Made by a program: the position numbers and the translations under genes | Shown: positions 119-15,394 of the stretch, in pieces | How the letters are laid out: each line of letters begins with the position of its first letter | Numbering within the stretch: position 1 is the first letter of the stretch | The notes under the pieces: model-generated | What the model was told of the DNA's origin: nothing | What the model saw: only the letters and a program-made list of their open reading frames with translations | Databases searched by the model: none | Source: an uncultured Chloroflexales bacterium | GTDB lineage: Bacteria > Chloroflexota > Chloroflexia > Chloroflexales > Chloroflexaceae | Reading direction: 5' to 3' | DNA: 39,577 bases | Assembly (NCBI GenBank): GCA_937925925.1 | Contig: CALANA010000118.1 | Coordinates: forward strand, 1-39,577

Positions 119-1639
119 CTACGGGGTATCAGCCAGTGCCCGTAATTCTAGATTATCAAAAAAGGCTTCGGTTATCACTGCACCAGGAGACACGACCAGG
201 CCATAGAGTTGCGTGGCCGGTGCATCAACGATCATCCGGGTTACGCGCTGATTGTTAATAAACAACTCAACCTCGTTCCCGCTCAGTTGGGCGGTGAGGC
301 GATTGGTTGCTGTGCGTTGAATTGACTGAGTCTGCCCTTCGGCCAGAATACGCAACCCACCCCCAATCCATTGTTCAAACCAGTAGGTTTGTTGTTCGGG
401 ATCGATCAGAAATGCCAGATAATTGCTGCCATCAACAAAGCGAAAGATCAGGCCCCCGGCACCACCGCTGACCTGTGTATCGACCCCGATACTGAAGTCG
501 GTGACATCACCAATGAACGCGGTGCGGTAACTCCAGATCTGACCGACGCCTGGCTGCGCAGAAATAGCATAGCGCCCATTCGCCAGGCCAACGCTCCAGC
601 CCAATCCTTGTATTTCGGCCCAACCCTGTGGATCGAGAAAATCATAAGCAGACAACAAGGTGCCTGGTGTAAAATCGACGGCAACAATTGGTGCTGTCGG
701 CACCGGTGTGGCCGTAGCTGGCAATGGTGTCGCTGTTGCTGGTACAATCGTAGCGGTGGCGGTCGCCGGACGTGGTGTGGCGGTTGCCGGGGGCGGCGTG
801 GCGGTTGCCGGACGTGGGGTGGCGGTCGCCGGGAGCGGCGTGGCGGTTGCTGGCACCAGGGTGGCGGTCGCCGGGAGCGGCGTGGCGGTCGCTGGCACCA
901 GGGTGGCGGTCGCCGGGCGCAGGGTACTGGTTGGTGATTGTATATCACCCGTCGCCTCAAAGTCGGATGCTGGTGACTGCGCGATGAGCGTCGCTGTTAC
1001 AGTAGGTGCCACATTTCCAGCCACCAGCATTGGTTCGCGCCGTAGCCACAGCACCACGACTAATAATCCAATCACCACCACTCCACTGCCACCAAAGAAC
1101 AACAAGGGTGGGATCGCACGTAACGAGCCAGCACGCCGACGCTGATCGGCATCAGGTGCCATACGTTGGGCAGACTGGGCCTGGGCTAGCAACGCGGCAC
1201 TATCGCGATAAAACGGGTTGATCTGTTGCAGTTGTCGCAGCAACGTGATGGCTTCTGCATAGCGTCGCGCTTTGAGGTGCGCCTGGGCCTGGGTATACAG
1301 AGTTGCCTGTTGATCGCCTCCGGGAGCGGGCGATGCAGGTGCTGGTCCGGGTGTCTCAACCTCAGGCGGCCAGTTCCTGTTAGCCTGGCGTGAGGGAGCG
1401 ATCGAACGACTGCGATCATACAGTTGCCGCTCGCGGAAGTTGCTTAACACCCGATAGGCCTCGTTGAGGCGCTGGGTGCGCTGGCTGGCATAGCTCTGTT
1501 CAGCGGGCGATGTATGCGTATAGCGGTCAGGGTGGTAGCGCGTTACCTGCTGACGATACGCACGTTTGATCTCATCGGTTGAGGCACCCGGTGCTATCCC
1601 CAGCAGTTCATAATAATCGAGTTGCTCGAAATCTTCCAT
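119..1639 (-). CDS. Membrane-anchored J-domain protein: N-terminal J domain, TPR-like segment, TM helix, (PATATP)n linker, C-terminal concanavalin/LamG-like domain
   Basis: MEDFEQLDYYELLGIAPGASTDEIKRAYRQQVTRYHPDRY carries the HPD motif; TM LLFFGGSGVVVIGLLVVVLWL; repeated PATATPxPATAT; C-terminal beta-rich domain. ORF extends to 1681 but the Met at 1639 fits the J domain better. Confidence 0.85.
   Translation of the reverse strand: MEDFEQLDYYELLGIAPGASTDEIKRAYRQQVTRYHPDRYTHTSPAEQSYASQRTQRLNEAYRVLSNFRERQLYDRSRSIAPSRQANRNWPPEVETPGPAPASPAPGGDQQATLYTQAQAHLKARRYAEAITLLRQLQQINPFYRDSAALLAQAQSAQRMAPDADQRRRAGSLRAIPPLLFFGGSGVVVIGLLVVVLWLRREPMLVAGNVAPTVTATLIAQSPASDFEATGDIQSPTSTLRPATATLVPATATPLPATATLVPATATPLPATATPRPATATPPPATATPRPATATATIVPATATPLPATATPVPTAPIVAVDFTPGTLLSAYDFLDPQGWAEIQGLGWSVGLANGRYAISAQPGVGQIWSYRTAFIGDVTDFSIGVDTQVSGGAGGLIFRFVDGSNYLAFLIDPEQQTYWFEQWIGGGLRILAEGQTQSIQRTATNRLTAQLSGNEVELFINNQRVTRMIVDAPATQLYGLVVSPGAVITEAFFDNLELRALADTP
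690..935 (-). repeat. Intragenic tandem repeat encoding a PATATPxP linker
   Basis: Reiterated ggcgtggcggt(t/c)gccgg(g/a) units on the + strand; translation is (PATATP[LRPV])n. Confidence 0.85.
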
Positions 1640-1880
1640 GCATACCAGAACCGTGTGCTGACCAGCCTGCATGCTGCGCAATCAGACACAACGGTGTTAT
1701 ATTGCAAGACTGAATAAGCTATAGAAAAGTGGGACATCCACCCACTGTTTTCGCCTACGATAGTGTGGAAGAAACCTTTTTTCCTCACATTGAAAATATG
1801 GGAAGCAAAACAAAAAAGTACCGCTCTGCCGTAGGCGAAAAAGACGTTAGCAACAAGCGACTGTCGTGCCTTGTATAGGA

Positions 1881-2202: not shown

Positions 2203-4068
2203 TCAACCAATCCGGGCCGTTTGGAAAGAAAACTCAACACTGCGCTGAATATGCGCAACCGAGCGAAACGCACGCTTTAGCTCTTGCTGTTCCAATTTAC
2301 TGAGACGTGAGACTGGCATCTGATTGGTGGGTTGTTCACCGGACTGGATCTGCCGATACTGGTGGCGTAGGCGCAGCAAGTTGATGGTTTCAAACGCGGC
2401 GATCAACTCTTCCGCGCCCGTTTCGCTCAAACTGCTCCGGCCAGCCGCCAGCCGCAACCGGGCCAGCGTATTGACTTCGGCACTGCCGGCCTCCAGCGCA
2501 AAGAGGCGCGCCAGATCGACAATCAACGCCGAGCCGCGCTCCTTCAGATCGATCAAATCACGGGTCGTGCCATGGTGTTCGACCACAAACTGACGGAAAA
2601 AGCCGATAGGCGGTGATTGGCGCAGCGCTGCCCGCGCCAGGCGGCTCAAGAAGATCCGTTCTTTACGACCGGACACAATAATAGGGCGCAAAACATGCTC
2701 AACATCTAATTCCCCATACACGCGTCGGTAATCAAAGAAGATGCCCACCCGCAGGAGTGCCTCCTCTTCCGGCAGGTGGATCCAGCGCCGAAAATAGTCT
2801 TGCCAGATCGACAACGGTTGCCGCCATTCAGGGTTGGTCGCCATGATATTGCCGGGACAGCGGGGAAAGCCACATGCTACCAGCCGCTCCACCACACGTT
2901 CAGCCAGCGCCAGAAAGTAGCTCTCGGCCGACGCCGGCGCAAGATCGGCATAGACCAGCGCATTATCCTGATCGGTACGCAACGTCTGCTCGTGCCGCCC
3001 TTCACTACCCAGTACCAGCCAGGCATACGGACACGGTGGTGGGCCGAGATCGGTTTCCGCATCACGCAACAGGCGTGTGAGTAACGCATCATGGGCCACC
3101 GCCACGACCTGCCCAATATCGCTGACTCGTGCGCCGGTATCGAGCAACGCCCCGACCGTCGTTGCCACCTGGTCGGCGTAGGCTCGCAAATCAGCGGTTG
3201 TCCGCGCCCGCCAGAGCTGATCGGCCAGAAAAAGGGGACTGCGACTCTGGCGACGGAGAATATCGGTGTCGGTGACAACACCGATGACGTTCCCATTTTC
3301 GGTAACAGGAATATGATGAAACTTACGTTCCAGCATCAACAACAACGCCTCAAACACCAGCCGCTCACCGGATAAGGTCAGCGCCGGCGCAGTCATCACG
3401 GCAGAGACGGGCGTGGCATCACTCAAGCCACAGGCTAGCACGCGACTGCGCAGATCGCGGTCGGTAATAATCCCCGGTGGCGTGAGATCAACAATCAGGC
3501 ACGAGAGGTAGCGATCCCGCATAATCTGTGCCGCCTCACGCACGGTGGTATCAGGCGCTATCAGGATCGCCTCGTGTTGCTCCAAGTCACGCAGCCGGGT
3601 TTGAAACAGTTCGGGAAGCACACCCGGACGCCGATCCTGAAACGCATTGCCCAGGCGCTCAATCGCCGAGGTGGTGATAAACTGTCCAAACACGGGAAAG
3701 TCCCGACACAGTTGATAAAACATCGCTGCCGGTAGCAGGTAGAGCAATGTTTTGCCACGGGCGCGACTGGTGACAATCGGGGGGCGGCGGCGAATCAACG
3801 AAGGATGCCCAAAAATCTCGCCTTCTTCGAGGGTATCGACCACGGTGCGTACCGGCCCATCTTCACGCAACAGATCGACAATCCCCTCCCGAATAATATA
3901 CAGGTATGCTGCCGGTTTTCCGCCATATACCAGAATATCCTGTCCAGCGGCGAACTCTTCCACATGGATGGCGTTGGCAATACGCTGCACCTGTTCGGGT
4001 GGTAACTGGCTGAACGGGAGCCGTTGCCGAAGAAAATGGGTAATTTCTTCTAAGGTATGGATAGACAT
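2203..4068 (-). CDS. Cyclic nucleotide-binding + CBS pair + DUF294 nucleotidyltransferase-like signalling protein
   Basis: N-terminal cNMP fold (AGQDILVYGGKPAAYLYIIREGIVDLL), CBS motifs (MRDRYLSCLIVD...GIITDRDLRSRVL; GVVTDTDILRR), NTase motif LGSEGRHEQTLRTDQDNALVY. Confidence 0.88.
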   Translation of the reverse strand: MSIHTLEEITHFLRQRLPFSQLPPEQVQRIANAIHVEEFAAGQDILVYGGKPAAYLYIIREGIVDLLREDGPVRTVVDTLEEGEIFGHPSLIRRRPPIVTSRARGKTLLYLLPAAMFYQLCRDFPVFGQFITTSAIERLGNAFQDRRPGVLPELFQTRLRDLEQHEAILIAPDTTVREAAQIMRDRYLSCLIVDLTPPGIITDRDLRSRVLACGLSDATPVSAVMTAPALTLSGERLVFEALLLMLERKFHHIPVTENGNVIGVVTDTDILRRQSRSPLFLADQLWRARTTADLRAYADQVATTVGALLDTGARVSDIGQVVAVAHDALLTRLLRDAETDLGPPPCPYAWLVLGSEGRHEQTLRTDQDNALVYADLAPASAESYFLALAERVVERLVACGFPRCPGNIMATNPEWRQPLSIWQDYFRRWIHLPEEEALLRVGIFFDYRRVYGELDVEHVLRPIIVSGRKERIFLSRLARAALRQSPPIGFFRQFVVEHHGTTRDLIDLKERGSALIVDLARLFALEAGSAEVNTLARLRLAAGRSSLSETGAEELIAAFETINLLRLRHQYRQIQSGEQPTNQMPVSRLSKLEQQELKRAFRSVAHIQRSVEFSFQTARIG

Positions 4069-4146
4069 AGTGGTTATATCAACTCTGGATCTGATTGGCT
4101 GGGGACAAGTATAGAGGGAAAGCACCCTTTTCGTCAAACCGGGCAC

Positions 4147-4592: not shown

Positions 4593-6341
4593 TTAGTGCG
4601 CTGCCGCCGATCCCGCGCCACGAGGCACACGTACCGACTCGACCAGATCCTGGATTTCCTGCGGTGGTGCGGCAGTGGCCCGTGAGACAATCAGCGTTAC
4701 TGCGAAATTCAGGATCGCGCCGATTGTGCCAATGCCCTGGGCGGTGATGCCAAAGAATGGCCCCATCAACGGTTCAGCGGTACCGAAGATTTTGACCGAT
4801 TGCATCATCAAAATCATCACCATCGTGAAAATCAAGCCTACTAACATACCGGCGATTGCGCCCTTGTCGTTCGCTCGCTTATCAAAAATACCTAGCACGA
4901 TGATCGGGAAGAAGCTGGCCGCTGCCAGGCCAAAGGCAAACGCGACCACCTCGGCCACAAAGCCAGGCGGATTAATGCCAAAGTAACCGGCGGCGATCAC
5001 CCCAAGGAAAATCACAATTCGACCGACCAGCAGGCGTAATCCCTCGCTGGCGTTCGGGTTGATCAGGCGGTAGTAGATGTCGTGCGAGAAGGCGCTCGAA
5101 ATCACCAGCAGCAGGCCTGACGCGGTGGAGAGCGCCGCTGCCAGACCCCCAGCCGCCACGAGCGCAATCACAAAGGCGGGCAGCCGCGCCACTTCTGGGG
5201 TTGAGAGGACGATAATATCATTGTCAATCGTTGCGTGGGCAAACGTTGTTCCTTTGTCATTCGCCTGCATACTGATCTGCCCATCCTGGTTCACGAAGCT
5301 AATCAAGCCAGTGCGCTGCCAGGATGAAGCCCATTCGATGTCTCTGCCTTGCGCATCTTGCAGGTTGAGAATTTCACGCCCGGCAACCGTCTCGGTCGAT
5401 ACAACCCGCGCGCCATGGAGCGTATTAAGCAGGTTGTAGCGTGCGAATACCGCTACCGCCGGGGCGGTGGTATACAGCAGGGCAATAAACAGCAAGGCCC
5501 AGCCCGCCGAGTAGCGTGCGGCCCGCACGTTCGGCACGGTGTAGAAGCGTACAATGACATGCGGCAGGCCAGCCGTACCGATCATCAGCGCAACCGTGAT
5601 CATAAACACATCAATCGGTTTACGATTGGCAAAGGGTTCGGTATATTCCCGGAACCCTAAATCGATCTGGATCTGATTTAACTTACCGGTAATATCGCTA
5701 AAGACCAGGCTTAATTGCGGGATTGGATTTCCGGTTAAAATCACAGCAATTGCCACCGCCGGAATGAGATACGCAATGATCAAGACCACATACTGGGCGA
5801 CCTGCGTCCAGGTAATCCCTTTCATCCCACCCAACACGGCAAAGAAGGCCACAATAACCATCCCCAGCACTACACCCCAGGTGATGTCCAGGCCCAGGAA
5901 GCGGCTAAAGACCACGCCGACACCACGCATCTGCCCGGCCACATACGTCAGCGAGACGAACACCGCCGCAATCGCCGCCACCCCACGCGCCGTCTTAGAG
6001 TAGTAGCGGTCGCCCACAAAGTCGGGCACGGTATACTTGCCGAACTTACGCAGATAGGGTGCAAGCAGCAGCGCCAGCAGCACATAGCCGCCCGTCCAGC
6101 CCATGAGGTAGATCGAGCCATCGAAGCCTAATACCGAAATCAAACCCGCCATTGAAATAAACGAGGCCGCTGACATCCAGTCCGCAGCAGTGGCCGCCCC
6201 ATTCGCAATCGCCGGCACACCCTGCCCCGCAACATAGAAGCCCTTGGTGTCTTTCACGCGTGATGCATAGCCAATATAGATGTAAATACCAAAGGTCAGA
6301 ATCACCAGAATATACGTCCAGGTCTGGGCATCCATGGTCAC
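4593..6341 (-). CDS. Sodium:solute symporter (SSS family, ActP-like acetate/cation permease)
   Basis: GFYVAGQGVPAIANGAATAADWMSAASFISMAGL, GGYVLLALLLAPYLRKFGKYTVPDFVGDRYY; multiple TM helices. Confidence 0.9.
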   Translation of the reverse strand: MTMDAQTWTYILVILTFGIYIYIGYASRVKDTKGFYVAGQGVPAIANGAATAADWMSAASFISMAGLISVLGFDGSIYLMGWTGGYVLLALLLAPYLRKFGKYTVPDFVGDRYYSKTARGVAAIAAVFVSLTYVAGQMRGVGVVFSRFLGLDITWGVVLGMVIVAFFAVLGGMKGITWTQVAQYVVLIIAYLIPAVAIAVILTGNPIPQLSLVFSDITGKLNQIQIDLGFREYTEPFANRKPIDVFMITVALMIGTAGLPHVIVRFYTVPNVRAARYSAGWALLFIALLYTTAPAVAVFARYNLLNTLHGARVVSTETVAGREILNLQDAQGRDIEWASSWQRTGLISFVNQDGQISMQANDKGTTFAHATIDNDIIVLSTPEVARLPAFVIALVAAGGLAAALSTASGLLLVISSAFSHDIYYRLINPNASEGLRLLVGRIVIFLGVIAAGYFGINPPGFVAEVVAFAFGLAAASFFPIIVLGIFDKRANDKGAIAGMLVGLIFTMVMILMMQSVKIFGTAEPLMGPFFGITAQGIGTIGAILNFAVTLIVSRATAAPPQEIQDLVESVRVPRGAGSAAAH

Positions 6342-6347
6342 ACCTCC

Positions 6348-6635
6348 TTATTCGTGTACGTCAAACTTATTATCAATTCCATCCATCAATTTGGCGTAGA
6401 CGAAGATCAAGACCACAAAGGTGATCATTGATCCCTGGTGCGCAAACCAGAAACTTAAGGGTACCTGACCAAGGTTAATGGTAACGAGGGGTCGAGCCAG
6501 AATAATGCCCGCCACATATGAAACAAGCGCCCAGATCGCAAGGAGAATGAAAATCAGCCGAACATTGGCCTTCCAATAGGCGATCGCCTTCTCCTCACCA
6601 CCTTCAACCACCGCCACTTTACGTCCCGTTGCCAT
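6348..6635 (-). CDS. DUF4212 sodium/substrate symporter small subunit
   Basis: AIAYWKANVRLIFILLAIWALVSYVAGIIL...VPLSFWFAHQGSMITFVVLIFVYAKLMDGID; directly upstream of the SSS gene. Confidence 0.92.
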   Translation of the reverse strand: MATGRKVAVVEGGEEKAIAYWKANVRLIFILLAIWALVSYVAGIILARPLVTINLGQVPLSFWFAHQGSMITFVVLIFVYAKLMDGIDNKFDVHE

Positions 6636-7056: not shown

Positions 7057-9267
7057 CTACGGATAGCGCCAGCTATCCACCAGCGCACTGGTCTGCGGTG
7101 CTATGGAGAATCCAAAGCGACTGATGGCCCAGGTGACAAAGAAGTTGACCGGCATACCAAAAATGCCCGCCGCATAGTGGCTAATCTGCAACAGGTTAAT
7201 CTCCGGGTTGATATAATTGAGCGTGATATACATGGCCGTGACAGCCATACCACTGATCATCCCCATAATCGCCGCCGGACTACTGGCCCGTTTCCAGAAG
7301 ATACTGAGCAGCAGCACCGGAAACAGGGTCGCTGCCGCCAGCGAAAATGACCAGGTCACCATATACACAATCAAACCGAAGCGGGGCAGCGCCGTCACCG
7401 CTGCCAGTAGCCCCACCACCAGCATGGTGATGCGGATAAAGCGCGGCGACTGCGAAAATCCCGCAGGCATCGTCCGCAAGCGTACTATGCGCTGCTGGGG
7501 TGTCTTGATATGGATTGGGACTCGCTGTGCAGGCCGGTATCCGCGCATTATTGTAGTTGACATAACAAAAAGTAACGCACTGGCAGCCGCCAGCGCAGCC
7601 GCCAATCCACCCGCAGCGATCAGCGCCACAACCGTTGCAGGCAAACTGGTCAGATCAGGCAGCATCCCCACCAGTTGTTCCTCACGCATCGCTGTGATCA
7701 CCAGTGCATACTGGTCAGCCGACAATCCGCTCAAGCCCCGATGGAAAAAGGCCCCGTAGATGGGAATACCCAGGCCGATCATCCCCACACTGAGCAGCGC
7801 CCAGCCTGGACTACTGCGACTCTCGCACACGCTGGCAACCGTGCAACTGCGCATCAGCAGATGGGGCATACTGGCCGTTCCACACATCAAGCAGAGCGCA
7901 AAAGCCAGCGTGTTCCAGATACCACTATCATTGGGTGTCATGTCAACCAGCCATCCATTGTTATTGATCGCTGGTGCGAGGCTAAGGGGTAACATCGTAG
8001 CCTGCCCAACCCAGATCAGCGGGATAAGCGCAGCGATGAACAAGATGAATCCCTGCACTACCTGCGTCCCGTGGAGGGCCTGCATACCCCCACGCCAGAT
8101 ATAGAGAAGCATGATCACCACCCCGATCACAACGCCAGGCGCATAGGGTACCCCCAGCAAGGCATTGCCGATCATACCTATACTCATCAGTTGCGCAGTC
8201 ATAAGCAGAAAGGCGATAATCAGCGTGACCAGGGCCGCAATGATGCGGGCAAGCACCCCCTCATATCGCAAGCCAATAAAATCGGTAATGGTATACTGGC
8301 CGGATTTCCGCACATACGGAGCAAAAAGCAGTGCCAGCAGCACATAGCCACCGATCCACCCTATCGTGGCGGCCAATCCGTCATACTCCGGCAACCAGAG
8401 CATGCCCGCCAGTCCTACAAAGGATGCGCTACTCATCCACATCGCCCCGGTCGCCAATCCATTCCACCTGCCCGGAATATGCCGACTGGCTACACAATAC
8501 TCTGCCAGCGTCAAAGTGCATGCTCGCCAGCCAATCCCCACGTACATGCTTATGGTTAAGATCACCACCACCCAGGATATGCGTCGTGGCGCAAACCCAA
8601 AGAGCAGATCATACAGCCCGATCACCAGAATAACCAGGACAAAACTCAAAACCAGGCGTAACAACAGGGTATGTTGAAGTGATTGTTCAGTTGTCGTGGT
8701 GATCAATGGCAAACCTGGCCGGGTCGCACGATCGAGACCGGCCATACGCCACGCATATCCGAAGATCAGGAATATACCGAACACCAATACACCACTTATT
8801 GTCAGCAGCGCATAAGGAGCGAGTATACTGCTCGATCCGGGAGTGGCGGGAGCAACCAGCAGCGGAGGCAACAGCACGATCAGCGGTAGACTGACCAGAA
8901 ACCAGGTAGCCAGCAGTATGCTCGTCATCTGCAGATTAGCGCGCCAGTAACCAGCCAGCCAGTCTGGTGTAGCAAGCAGGGGTATCTGGCTGGGAGCTGT
9001 GCGTGCTTCGTGGGCTAGCAAAATCGACTCAGGGCGTTCCTGTCCACCTTCTCCCCGGCCAGCTAGCGTCGGAGCAACGGATGCCAATACAGGATCAGGA
9101 CGTTCTGGTAGTTGAGCGCGGTCATCAGGAATACGCTCGATACGGGGAAAGAGACGATCCAGTGTCCAGAACGCCAGACGGACGATGAACATCCACAGCA
9201 GCAACAGCAACAACGGTCTCGCCCAATCCGACGACGCCAGCACTTCAAACATGGGTGTTCTGATCAC
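7057..9267 (-). CDS. DUF4212-like domain fused to an SSS-family permease (736 aa)
   Basis: YWRANLQMTSILLATWFLVSL...LIFGYAWRMAGLD aligns with the separate DUF4212 protein; the remainder (GAMWMSSASFVGLAGM, GGYVLLALLFAPYVRKSGQYTITDFIGLRY) aligns with the ActP-like permease; GTG start. Confidence 0.88.
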   Translation of the reverse strand: MIRTPMFEVLASSDWARPLLLLLLWMFIVRLAFWTLDRLFPRIERIPDDRAQLPERPDPVLASVAPTLAGRGEGGQERPESILLAHEARTAPSQIPLLATPDWLAGYWRANLQMTSILLATWFLVSLPLIVLLPPLLVAPATPGSSSILAPYALLTISGVLVFGIFLIFGYAWRMAGLDRATRPGLPLITTTTEQSLQHTLLLRLVLSFVLVILVIGLYDLLFGFAPRRISWVVVILTISMYVGIGWRACTLTLAEYCVASRHIPGRWNGLATGAMWMSSASFVGLAGMLWLPEYDGLAATIGWIGGYVLLALLFAPYVRKSGQYTITDFIGLRYEGVLARIIAALVTLIIAFLLMTAQLMSIGMIGNALLGVPYAPGVVIGVVIMLLYIWRGGMQALHGTQVVQGFILFIAALIPLIWVGQATMLPLSLAPAINNNGWLVDMTPNDSGIWNTLAFALCLMCGTASMPHLLMRSCTVASVCESRSSPGWALLSVGMIGLGIPIYGAFFHRGLSGLSADQYALVITAMREEQLVGMLPDLTSLPATVVALIAAGGLAAALAAASALLFVMSTTIMRGYRPAQRVPIHIKTPQQRIVRLRTMPAGFSQSPRFIRITMLVVGLLAAVTALPRFGLIVYMVTWSFSLAAATLFPVLLLSIFWKRASSPAAIMGMISGMAVTAMYITLNYINPEINLLQISHYAAGIFGMPVNFFVTWAISRFGFSIAPQTSALVDSWRYP

Positions 9268-10521
9268 TCATGCCGGATTCCGTGTTCGTAGACGGTGCCT
9301 GTGTTGCCGCACGGTCTGATCGGGGGTATACTCGGCAGGGCGGAGCTGGTTGAAGAGCATCTGCTGCTGATCGCCATCTTCCAGTGCCTGCAAGGTCTGC
9401 GGATCGATCGGTAGCGTAAAGGAAAACGTCGTCCCATGCCCCAGACCGGGGCTTTCGGCCCAGATATCGCCGCCATGGGCATACACCAGATGCCGGGCAA
9501 TGGTCAGGCCAATCCCATTACCACCGCTAGCACGGGCGCGTGATTTGTCCACCCGATAGAAGCGCTCAAAAATCTGCGGCAGATGTTCGGGCGCAATCCC
9601 AATCCCGGTATCCTGGATCGCAATAATCAGGCGTGTGGCATCGGCATGTGCCCGCACTGTTACCGTGCCACCGGCGGGCGTATAGCGAAAAGCATTCGCA
9701 AGCAGGTTAATGAGTACCTGGTTCACCCGATCCGGGTCGGCCCAGGCCAACGGCAGATCCGGCGCAATGACCGAGATCAGTTGCACCTGATCGGCTGCAA
9801 GCTGGGGCTGAAACTGGGCCACCAGATGTTCCAGTATGGCGCGCATGTCCGTTGGCCGCGGAATCACGGGAATTTGACCAGCTTCTACCCGTGAGAGCAA
9901 CATCAAATCCTCAATCAGCCGCTGGAGACGCACCGACTCGCTGAGAACGAGCGAGAACGTTTCACGACTGGGCTGCACAACACCATCGAGCAAGCCTTCC
10001 ATATAGCCTTCAATCGTTGCCAGGGGGGTGCGTAGCTCGTGCGCCACGTCGCCCAGCAGCGCCATCCGCCGCTGTTCGGTCTGCTCCAGCGTTTCCGCCA
10101 GTTGATTGACATTGCGACTCAGCTCGGCCAGTTCATCATCAGAGCCGATCAATGTACGTTCACGATAAAACCCCTGCGCCAGGCGTTGACTGACGGTGGA
10201 GATCGCATGCAGTGGCTCGACGATGCGATGGGAGACAAACAGGCTTACCGTGACGGCAGCAACCAGTGCCGAGAACGAGGCCACCAGCAGTGATTGTTGT
10301 ACCACCAGTTGAAAGTGCTTTAACCATGGTTCACTCAGATCAGCATACCGTTCCACTTGATCTGCTGCTGGCTGCTCTCCTCCGGGCAGCGCGGGCATAT
10401 CGTCCAACAGACTGCGACTGGCTAGAAAATGCGCGGTTGCCAGCAGGATCACCACCGCGATCAAAAAGATGATCAGGTGCGAAATAAACAGCTTCCAGCG
10501 CAACTGATGATGCCAGCGCAT
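9268..10521 (-). CDS. HAMP-containing sensor histidine kinase
   Basis: Two TM helices, HAMP, HisKA MALLGDVAHELRTPLATIEGYMEGLLDG, HATPase NQVLINLLANAFRYTPAGG, DTGIGI. ORF extends to 10551; the Met at 10521 follows the RR stop. Confidence 0.92.
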   Translation of the reverse strand: MRWHHQLRWKLFISHLIIFLIAVVILLATAHFLASRSLLDDMPALPGGEQPAADQVERYADLSEPWLKHFQLVVQQSLLVASFSALVAAVTVSLFVSHRIVEPLHAISTVSQRLAQGFYRERTLIGSDDELAELSRNVNQLAETLEQTEQRRMALLGDVAHELRTPLATIEGYMEGLLDGVVQPSRETFSLVLSESVRLQRLIEDLMLLSRVEAGQIPVIPRPTDMRAILEHLVAQFQPQLAADQVQLISVIAPDLPLAWADPDRVNQVLINLLANAFRYTPAGGTVTVRAHADATRLIIAIQDTGIGIAPEHLPQIFERFYRVDKSRARASGGNGIGLTIARHLVYAHGGDIWAESPGLGHGTTFSFTLPIDPQTLQALEDGDQQQMLFNQLRPAEYTPDQTVRQHRHRLRTRNPA

Positions 10522-10525
10522 ACAT

Positions 10526-11218
10526 TCACCTACCCACAAACTTATAGCCAACGCCGCGTACCGTTTGGATTAAACCCGCCGCCGGGTCATCGTCCAACTT
10601 ACGGCGTAGCACACCCACATGCACATCAACCACACGGTCAATGCCCGCAAAATCACGCCCCCACACCCGCTGCAGGAGTTCTTCGCGGGTAAAAACCCGT
10701 CCGGGATAGCTTGCCAGAGCGTAGAGAAGATCAAATTCGCGGGGGGTCAACTCGACCAGCACCTGATCGCGCCAGACCTCGCGCCGTTCGGGATGAATAA
10801 CCAGGCGGTCAAATTGCAGTACCGGACGTTCGCTGATCTGATCTAACGGTTGACGCTGACGACGGAGAATGGCCTTGACGCGCGCCACCAGTTCGCGGGG
10901 ACTAAAAGGTTTGGTCAGGTAATCATCGGCACCAATCGAAAGTCCGATCAGTTTGTCCACCTCTTCTGCACGAGCGGTGAGCATCAAGATATAGACTGGA
11001 TTTTCTTGCTGTAACCGTCGGCAAACCTCAAGCCCATCAATGCCGGGCAACATCACATCCAGCACAATCAAGTCAGGACGCACATTGCGTGCCAGGTTCA
11101 GTGCCGAGAGGCCATCATAGGCCCGCTGCACCACATAGCCTTCGGCGCTGAGATAGCTCGCCACTAGATCTACAATGGGTTCTTCGTCATCTACGACCAG
11201 AATCGTCGCTGATTCCAC
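10526..11218 (-). CDS. OmpR/PhoB-family response regulator
   Basis: ILVVDDEEPIVDLVASYLSAEGY...LIVLDVMLPGIDGLEV...LTKPFSPRELVARVKAILRR; winged-helix TPREFDLLYALASYPGRVFTREELLQRVWG. Confidence 0.95.
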   Translation of the reverse strand: MESATILVVDDEEPIVDLVASYLSAEGYVVQRAYDGLSALNLARNVRPDLIVLDVMLPGIDGLEVCRRLQQENPVYILMLTARAEEVDKLIGLSIGADDYLTKPFSPRELVARVKAILRRQRQPLDQISERPVLQFDRLVIHPERREVWRDQVLVELTPREFDLLYALASYPGRVFTREELLQRVWGRDFAGIDRVVDVHVGVLRRKLDDDPAAGLIQTVRGVGYKFVGR

Positions 11219-11384
11219 AGTAACACCTTACAGCAACTGGGGTTGCCTCGTAAACCTGTAACTGAAATGTAACTGATACTATACCACAGATTGAAAGATT
11301 ATGTGCAATACCAATGCACATTCATAGCAATCAGAGCGATCAGTTCCACTGCCCCGAACCTGAGTCCCATCTTCCGCACCCGGA

Positions 11385-11525
11385 TGGGAGTCCCGGCTTG
11401 AGCCGAGTCGGGCCACTGGAGGCCCGTTCCGCCGCCGACCGAAGTCCCGGCTTGAGCCGAGTCGGGCGGGAGACCCGCCTTCCGCCCCCGACCGGGAGTC
11501 CCGCCTCGAGCCGGGTCGGGCCACC
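11385..11525. repeat. Cluster of AGTCCCGGCTTGAGCCG(A/G)GTCGGG extragenic palindromes
   Basis: At least four copies of gggagtcccg[gc]..[ct]tgagccgNgtcggg. Confidence 0.85.
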
Positions 11526-12039: not shown

Positions 12040-12480
12040 ATGATAATCGGAGCCACTGCCACCCAGTGCATCATGCCCGCCCCGCCCCGCCGCGCTCCAC
12101 CGCGCTCGCCGCGCCCGCCGCGCCCGCCATTGTCCCGCAGCGTCATTACAACGTGCGCATCCATGCCCGACAATGCATGCCATGATCGTAGGGGCACCTC
12201 TGTTGGGTGCCCGCAACGCCCCGTCATGCATACCAGTGGCAACATTGCCCCACAGCGCCTGCAGCGCTCCGCCCCGCATCACAATAATCATGTCATGATC
12301 GTAGGGGCACTGGTGGGTGCCCGCAACGCCCCACCATGCATATCAATGGCAACATCTCCGCGCCCGCCGCGCCCTCCATCGCTCTTCATTGCTCCACCAT
12401 GATCATGCGATGATCGTCGGGTCACCGCTCGTGGGTGCCCGCAACGCCCCGCAATGAAAAACAATGTGCTACAGCGCCGC
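12040..12480. repeat. Repeat island: gatcgtaggggcacc...gggtgcccgcaacgcccc hairpins with catgcataccaNtggcaacat modules and C-rich low-complexity DNA
   Basis: Copies near 12183, 12295 and 12408; related modules recur at 13446, 13590 (inverted), 13713, 29297 and 29470. Confidence 0.8.
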
Positions 12481-13885: not shown

Positions 13886-14010
13886 CCGGGGGCGTAAACG
13901 CCCCGGCCAGGGGTGCCAAGGCCACCTGCGTGGCCTTGCGAGCCTGCGCCGAGGGCCGGGGGCGTCAACGCCCCGGCAAGGTGAGCGAAGGCCACCTACG
14001 TGGCCTCGCA
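13886..14010. repeat. Two copies of a composite palindrome pair (ccgggggcgtNaacgccccgg + aaggccacctNcgtggcct)
   Basis: ccgggggcgtaaacgccccgg and ccgggggcgtcaacgccccgg, each followed by aaggccacct[g/a]cgtggcct. Confidence 0.88.
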
Positions 14011-14011
14011 A

Positions 14012-14463
14012 GCCCGCGTAGGCGGGCTTCGCCCAGGTTGCCCGCGGCTTCAGCCACCGGGGGCCAGCCCGCGTAGGCGGGCTTCGCCCAGGTTGCCCGC
14101 GGCTTCAGCCGCCGGGGGCCAGCGGGTTGCCCGCGGCTTCAGCCGCCGGGGGCCAGCCCGCGTAGGCGGGCTTCGCCCGGGTTGCCCGCGGCTTCAGCCG
14201 CCGGGCACCAGCCCGCGCAGGCGGGCTTCGCCCGGGTTGCCCGCGGCTTCAGCCGCCGGGGGCCAGCGGGTTGCCCGCGGCTTCAGCCGCCGGGGGCCAG
14301 CCCGCGCAGGCGGGCTTCGCCAGGTTGCCCGCGGCTTTAGCCGCCGGGGGCCAGCCTGCGTAGGCGGGCTTCGCCCGGGTTGCCCGCGGCTTTAGCCGCC
14401 GGGGGCCAGCCCGCGTAGGCGGGCTTCGCCCGGGTTGCGCGCGGCTTTAGCCGCCGGGGGCCG
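14012..14463. repeat. Tandem array of composite palindromes, basic unit 55 bp, higher-order unit 144 bp
   Basis: gcccgcgtaggcgggc starts at 14012, 14067, 14156, 14211, 14300, 14354 and 14409, each followed by cccgcggctt(c/t)agccgccgggggcca. Confidence 0.93.
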
Positions 14464-15097
14464 AACCAGTCTCTATCACCGCCCGCAAGCCCGCTGCAAA
14501 CTGCCGTGCCCCACCCTGGGCCGGATGCCGCACTTTGTGATGCGCCACCCCCAACCGCGTTAGCGCCTGATCAGCGGTGTTGCCCATTGCCACGACCAGT
14601 ACCGCCGGAAAGAGCGTACAGACACGTGCCAGGAAGGGCAAGCCCAGCGCCAGCTCGGCAGCACGTGGGGTGCGGTTGCTCTGCGGGTTATCGCCGCGAT
14701 GTGGATGGAAGGGAAAGGCGTTCCAACCCACGGCCACAACGCCCAGGCAGGCGATCTCACGCCAGACAATCGTCGCCGTTTGCTCGGCGGAGATGCGCCC
14801 ATCGTCAGTAGCCAGCACAAACCCGCGTGCCGCACCAAACAACCCCGGTGGATCGATCCCACGTAACATAATCCGCTCGCTCGTAAACGGGATGCCCGTG
14901 CGCCGCGCCCCGAGATAGCCCGGTGCCTCGCCCACCAGCAGCAGTAGGGGTTGCCGCGCCTGCGCCTGCTCCAACGCCCGCCGCAGATTGGCACGGCGCA
15001 CAGCATTCCCGGCCACGCCATTGTCCGCATACTGGTTCGTCGCATCGGCGGCCACCGGTGCCTGTGCCAGATCGTTCAGGAGTTGATCAAATATCAT
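14447..15097 (-). CDS. Uracil-DNA glycosylase-family protein
   Basis: PLLLLVGEAPGYLGARRTGIPFTSERIMLRG and late VVAMGNTADQAL; UDG-superfamily style motifs. Confidence 0.82.
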   Translation of the reverse strand: MIFDQLLNDLAQAPVAADATNQYADNGVAGNAVRRANLRRALEQAQARQPLLLLVGEAPGYLGARRTGIPFTSERIMLRGIDPPGLFGAARGFVLATDDGRISAEQTATIVWREIACLGVVAVGWNAFPFHPHRGDNPQSNRTPRAAELALGLPFLARVCTLFPAVLVVAMGNTADQALTRLGVAHHKVRHPAQGGARQFAAGLRAVIETGSAPGG

Positions 15098-15177: not shown

Positions 15178-15372
15178 TGGAGTCCCGGCTCTAGCCAACA
15201 ACACCGGAGTCCCGGCTCTAGCCGACAACACCGGAGTCCCGGCTTGAGCCGGGCCGGAGCAGCCAACAACACCAGAGTCCCGACTGCAGCCGGGCTGGAG
15301 CAGCCGGGAGCAACGGAGTCCCGGCTTGAGCCGGGCCGACTCCAGCCGACAACACCGGAGTCTCGGCTTCAG
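15178..15372. repeat. Cluster of GGAGTCCCGGCT-NN-AGCC(GGG) extragenic palindromes
   Basis: Six or more iterations of ggagtcccggct(t/c)(g/t)agcc, spaced about 30-50 bp. Confidence 0.85.
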
Positions 15373-15394
15373 ATGTAGGATTGCCATACCATCA

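Follow-up and report, generated by a model that had tools for sequence, protein, structure and literature searches.

The fused gene and its neighbours

The window, by which we mean the whole 39,577-nucleotide stretch analysed here, carries a gene in which a DUF4212 small-subunit domain and an SSS permease are encoded as a single chain, flanked on one side by a separate DUF4212/SSS pair and on the other by a two-component system:

2203-4146: cNMP/CBS/DUF294 protein (Pfam)
4593..6341, minus strand: stand-alone SSS permease from the split pair; 13 TM helices, member of the short clade, retains the Na2 motif (profiles, hydropathy, tree)
6348..6635, minus strand: stand-alone DUF4212 protein, the small subunit in the split pair (Pfam, 107 bits)
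7057..9267, minus strand: fused protein of 736 aa, with N-terminal TM, linker, DUF4212, linker TM and SSS permease (ORF, Pfam, NCBIfam, hydropathy)
7249..8499, minus strand: SSF domain, residues 257-673 (Pfam)
7585..7590, minus strand: A560-A561 in TM8 (alignment)
8440..8442, minus strand: M276 in TM1 (alignment)
8614..8670, minus strand: linker TM at residues 200-218; its homologue in the long SSS clade is the additional N-terminal helix
8728..8952, minus strand: DUF4212 hairpin, residues 106-180 (profile match)
9160..9216, minus strand: N-terminal TM helix, residues 18-36
9268..10551, minus strand: histidine kinase with 2 TM, an outer loop of ~48 residues, HAMP, HisKA and HATPase_c (Pfam, hydropathy)
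10526..11218, minus strand: OmpR/PhoB-type response regulator, Response_reg + Trans_reg_C (Pfam, NCBIfam)

The fused gene begins with a GTG that directly abuts the stop codon of the kinase gene, with zero gap. An earlier note on this DNA had proposed that a DUF4212 segment precedes a full SSS permease in one chain. This is borne out by Pfam, whose DUF4212 model (PF13937) matches residues 106-180 (E 2.1e-7; 31.7 bits, with the cut-off at 30), inside the region of residues ~85-190 that the note had singled out, and whose SSF model matches residues 257-673 (E 4.7e-37). With NCBIfam, the permease part scores 349.1 bits against TIGR03648, above the cut-off of 320.75, while the small-subunit part reaches 24.2 bits against TIGR03647, a model of the subfamily_domain type, just under its cut-off of 26.05. 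Most orthologues in the same family score ~80-97 bits for DUF4212, which points to a DUF4212 likeness in the window protein that is real yet eroded; clear scores among orthologues include 91 in L054 and 66.6 in L035. The separate pair adjoins the fused gene at 4593-6635, as had also been noted, and its small subunit and the fused copy are the only two DUF4212 matches found in the source genome, which is 93% complete.

The extra N-terminal part described in the earlier note does consist of one TM helix plus a linker, and an LFP motif that is near-invariant across the fused family follows the helix at residues 39-41; what had been overlooked is a further TM helix at residues ~192-223, between DUF4212 and the SSS core. 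By hydropathy, the split permease of the window has 13 helices and its small subunit, whose N-terminus is basic, has 2; an intact fused protein has 17 (1 + 2 + 1 + 13). The TM helices are kept in the fused protein of the window.

Several repeats lie elsewhere in the window. Tandem repeats of 21 bases at 714-944 code for the Pro/Thr/Ala-rich middle of a DnaJ-like protein of 520 aa (119-1681, minus strand), and short intergenic repeat families occur at 11374-11518 and 15193-15380, at 12176-12466 and at 13964-14517. Repeat units of the GGAGTCCCGGCT type are common to two sites 4 kb apart, and an array of 9 copies lies at ~14 kb.

Distribution and origin of the fusion

Among 100 relatives, DUF4212 was found in 55, and in ~40 of these one copy lies within an open frame of roughly 550-970 aa, that is, in fused form. 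Across 301 genomes sampled evenly from the phylum, the fused frames are confined to the order of the window. The survey of fusion frequency that the earlier note had suggested thus removes the fusion from the realm of local events, with ~40 genomes of the order carrying it. Outside the phylum, DUF4212 occurs in 122 of 349 genomes of the phylum of Paracoccus (Pseudomonadota) and in 48 of 238 from the phylum to which a MAG titled Myxococcales belongs. Among the long-frame candidates read in these two phyla, L100 (776 aa) is the sole genuine fusion: it alone held up of three candidates from Pseudomonadota, and four long DUF4212 frames from the phylum of the Myxococcales-titled MAG proved to be upstream frame extensions, with the domain C-terminal and a separate permease after it. 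Fusion is rare in the other phyla and the rule in the order of the window. We found no mention of DUF4212 in the literature examined. The NCBI description of TIGR03647 reportedly mentions occasional fusion already.

Since DUF4212, whether as a protein of its own or in fused form, accompanies SSS permeases of three phyla, the proposal that the small subunit is integral to the permease is likely to be right. Two other arrangements were observed. In a pseudomonadotal locus (L105:2632-7367, minus strand), a regulator, a 2CSK_N-type kinase and a DUF4212 frame are followed by an MFS transporter in place of an SSS permease, and in genome G016 (L078:3592-8069) two split small/large pairs stand in tandem, followed by DUF294.

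We built a tree of 47 VC_2705-type permeases, from which the distant ActP-like L005_5827 was taken out because it joined the branch of the window by long-branch attraction. The tree splits the permeases into a short clade with 13 TM helices, which includes the split permease of the window, and a long clade with one extra N-terminal helix. All fused proteins of the order, the 736-aa protein among them, form one group in the long clade, next to split long permeases from the same and from neighbouring families; the window protein thus belongs with the VC_2705-family SSS. L100 is nested among unfused long permeases of Pseudomonadota, so the fusion arose twice, both times in the long clade. The side-by-side arrangement might suggest that the split pair gave rise to the fused gene. 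The trees rule this out, since the two permeases belong to different clades, and the fusion is kept across several families of the order, usually at a locus other than that of the split pair.

Judging from topology, the extra helix would set the N-terminus of long-clade permeases on the cytoplasmic side, where the C-terminus of DUF4212 ends, and this may be what makes fusion possible in the long clade. The clade pattern offers a testable rule, namely that the small subunit fuses only to permeases with an extra N-terminal helix and a cytoplasmic N-terminus. Unfused long forms have as neighbours an acetyl-CoA synthetase gene (acs, at L112), a PEP-synthase-like gene (pps, at L107) and a histidine kinase (at L114). 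The first two point to acetate- or pyruvate-like substrates, and the third indicates that association with a kinase is not limited to the order of the window.

A conserved operon with a kinase and a regulator

Around the fused genes a recurrent gene order was seen, consisting of an EVE-like gene, a regulator, a kinase and the fused permease. In a strict count over the 38 loci with room for a kinase upstream, the kinase lies directly upstream of the fused gene in 35 and the regulator is present in 35. The exceptions are L057, where a run of N occupies the position of the kinase; L070, where the kinase frame overlaps an over-extended permease frame; L062, with a kinase and no regulator match; and L073, with neither. 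In many relatives the kinase and the fused gene overlap by four bases, which together with the gapless junction in the window makes translational coupling likely.

The kinases of this operon have two TM helices by hydropathy and an outer segment of ~39-48 residues, a length that would not accommodate a usual extracellular sensor domain. In the window kinase the outer loop does not contain the APLTLGAAAAETG motif that is common in kinases of this family. We considered whether this loss reflects co-evolution with the permease and do not claim so, as deeper lineages with intact permeases also do without the motif and G009, which has no fused permease, nearly keeps it.

Divergence of the window copy

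The fused copy of the window differs from its relatives at positions of functional weight. In TM8 it reads AALAAASA where the other VC_2705-type proteins compared read AALSTADG or AALSTASG. The conserved Ser-Thr pair aligns exactly with S364/S365 in structures of vSGLT, known Na2 ligands. This pair is present in all 46 other VC_2705-type proteins compared, from three phyla, and is replaced by Ala-Ala (A560-A561) in the window fused copy only. In TM1, the window copy has M276 at a position that is D in the other VC_2705-type proteins compared and E in the congener. The DUF4212 core TGFPLGYYMxAQG of relatives has become APYALLTISG, and most of the NGDG-containing periplasmic loop that precedes TM8 is gone. 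In VC_2705-type permeases this loop carries an EF-hand-like stretch (NGDGxxxY/DKNGDGRIEY; L054 residues ~520-535, L004:6358-8088), possibly a cation site.

Across 179 columns that are invariant in 35 fused relatives, the window copy keeps 118 and the congener G001 keeps 157. The terminal branch of the fused protein measures 1.33 substitutions per site in the window, ~3-10x longer than in its relatives (0.45 for G001, 0.11-0.36 for the other family members), whereas that of the window kinase (0.51, against 0.12-0.84 in others) is unremarkable. Amino-acid identity to relative G002 is 45% for the fused protein, 64% for the kinase and 79% for both the regulator and the split permease. Acceleration is confined to the fused gene, and the kinase and regulator evolve normally. 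The earlier note had suggested that the fused copy has specialised. The divergence of the window copy is clear, but it is not tied to fusion: conservation extends to 35 other fused copies, in which the Na2 motif is retained, and only the window copy has run away, with a milder trend in its one congener.

Despite this divergence, the open reading frame holds zero stops and no sign of a frameshift over 736 codons, whereas simulated unconstrained drift to 50-60% identity introduced an average of 13-17 stops, and at least 5 in each of 200 runs, which argues that the fused gene is still under selection. Codon differences are more frequent at third positions than at first and second positions, although part of this pattern predates the acceleration. 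A frameshift or assembly error as the source of the divergence was considered and rejected: the other frames of 7057-9267 gave no convincing match to intact relatives, and the sole hit below 1e-3 was to L037, which is itself frameshifted. The AlphaFold2 model of the window protein reached a mean pLDDT of 66, that of an intact relative 80, with the DUF4212 helices among the better-predicted parts. Both models match SSS structures by fold. Against SiaT, the window protein gave a TM-score (target length) of 0.67-0.68 and the intact relative one of 0.82; the lower value may reflect the quality of the model.

Loss of the fused gene in two relatives

Relatives G008 and G009 have the regulator, the kinase and a small and a large subunit in this order, with no fused gene in between. 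Here the fused gene has been lost from its operon position, with its first helix left behind in G008. The gap of 414 bases after the G008 kinase holds a frame whose product aligns with residues 1-46 or 6-51 in fused relatives (tblastn E 1e-4). This frame (L088:3546-3740, minus strand) comprises only the N-terminal helix and the LFP motif of the fused permease (MIIFQALFGLDW...LALDRLFPVMQHR...), followed by a stop, and could be either a deletion remnant or a small membrane peptide that has been kept. Since kinase and regulator persist in both genomes, the kinase can do without the permease.

Interpretation

We propose that the fused permease was ancestrally paired with the kinase and that the window copy has become uncoupled from Na+ and now partners the kinase in a Na+-independent or sensor-like role, a reading to which we assign a probability of roughly 0.4. 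In this proposal, the fused permease is the third member of a conserved operon of response regulator, histidine kinase and DUF4212/SSS protein, and most members are probably working Na+ symporters for a short-chain monocarboxylate of the acetate, pyruvate or lactate type, a substrate class suggested solely by the acs and pps neighbours of distant relatives. As a structural subunit, the DUF4212 hairpin would pack onto the permease in cis; the kinase would probably read the state of the permease or work beside it. In the lineage of the window, the side-chain ligands of Na2, the acid of TM1, the DUF4212 core and the periplasmic loop were lost, while the frame stayed intact and co-encoded with the kinase, and the adjacent split pair would perform Na+-coupled uptake. 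That Na+ coupling itself has been lost in this lineage we consider probable. Against the proposal stand the scattered nature of the residue losses, which also fit relaxed selection, the poor model of the window protein, and the absence of the fused gene from G008 and G009 while kinase and regulator remain.

The strongest alternative, which we hold to be a serious though not the favoured explanation, is that a split Na+ symporter beside the operon made the fused copy redundant, so that it is now decaying slowly under relaxed selection, with the congener at an early stage, the window at a late stage and G008 and G009 at the end point. The gradient of conservation from G002 through G001 (157/179) to the window (118/179) fits such a series, as do the stretch in G008 that matches only the fused N-terminus and the fact that the losses strike functional residues. 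However, 736 codons without a stop or frameshift, the codon-position pattern of a still-constrained protein and the retention of the TM helices argue against decay. For the window copy, we regard a sensor-like partner and a gene on its way out as nearly even.

A bolder version of the proposed kinase partnership, in which the three genes form a split transceptor throughout the order and the window permease gave up Na+ symport for the role of a dedicated sensor subunit, a separate-gene parallel of CbrA, seems to us rather unlikely. Less likely still, and in our view doubtful, is that transport was kept and the permease became recoupled to protons or turned into a uniporter or exchanger, with a titratable residue such as H399 replacing the Na2 site. 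Such recoupling has a precedent in CbrA, which carries histidine on the proton gradient without Na2 residues (PMC7918813, PMC13022988), and the T399H change lies in core TM5, one turn ahead of the residue that aligns with the Asp of SiaT/vSGLT; yet H399 was picked from the sequence itself rather than from an alignment with CbrA, and many further conserved positions have also changed. That the window protein is an ordinary Na+ symporter which tolerates the changes, the TM8 pair being non-essential in it, is very improbable, because, although its TIGR03648 score remains above the cut-off and it is recovered by the search for the SSS fold, the pair is kept in every other protein compared across three phyla and Na2 substitutions are reported to be highly deleterious in all SSS transporters studied (PMC7918813).

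If the kinase does read the permease, the order would offer a natural series of ~35 intact operons, one without the sodium site and two that have kept the kinase without the permease. It would then allow a direct test of the transition from transporter to sensor, so far studied in single-chain proteins like CbrA.

Comparison with known systems

The closest relatives are the VC_2705 family (TIGR03648 with TIGR03647/PF13937), whose permease subfamily and small subunit are shared with the fused protein by profile. The fused protein differs in being a single chain with an extra N-terminal TM and a linker TM, and the window copy differs further in having neither the Na2 ligands nor the DUF4212 core motif and in its TIGR03647 score just below the cut-off.

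Other systems pair an SSS permease with a small membrane protein. ActP is likewise an SSS permease of the acetate group, and its small partner is YjcH. However, the window permease scores 110.9 against an equivalog cut-off of 1099 for ActP, and the small proteins belong to different families. SGLT1/2 with MAP17 likewise combine the SSS fold with a small membrane subunit and were among the top fold matches, but MAP17 is an unrelated single protein of animals and has no link to a kinase.

CbrA and CrbS, the SLC5-STAC kinases, likewise link an SSS domain to a histidine kinase. CbrA is an SSS-kinase transceptor in which the Na2 site is filled by K196 (PMC13022988, preprint; PMC7918813); loss of this site is shared with the window copy only, as the other fused copies, unlike CbrA, keep it. 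CbrX, a two-helix peptide, packs on the SSS domain of CbrA against TM3 and TM8 (PMC13022988, preprint), whereas the permease described here carries a two-helix module within its own chain. Instead of forming one chain, kinase and permease come from two adjacent genes (9268-10551 and 7057-9267), and the regulator is of the OmpR type whereas CbrB is described as a sigma-54 activator. For a STAC domain, Pfam shows nothing beyond HAMP, HisKA and HATPase_c in the window kinase and nothing after SSF in the permease. Chain architecture and the missing STAC domain both place the window proteins outside the CbrA family, and the resemblance to CbrA is one of a possible working mode.
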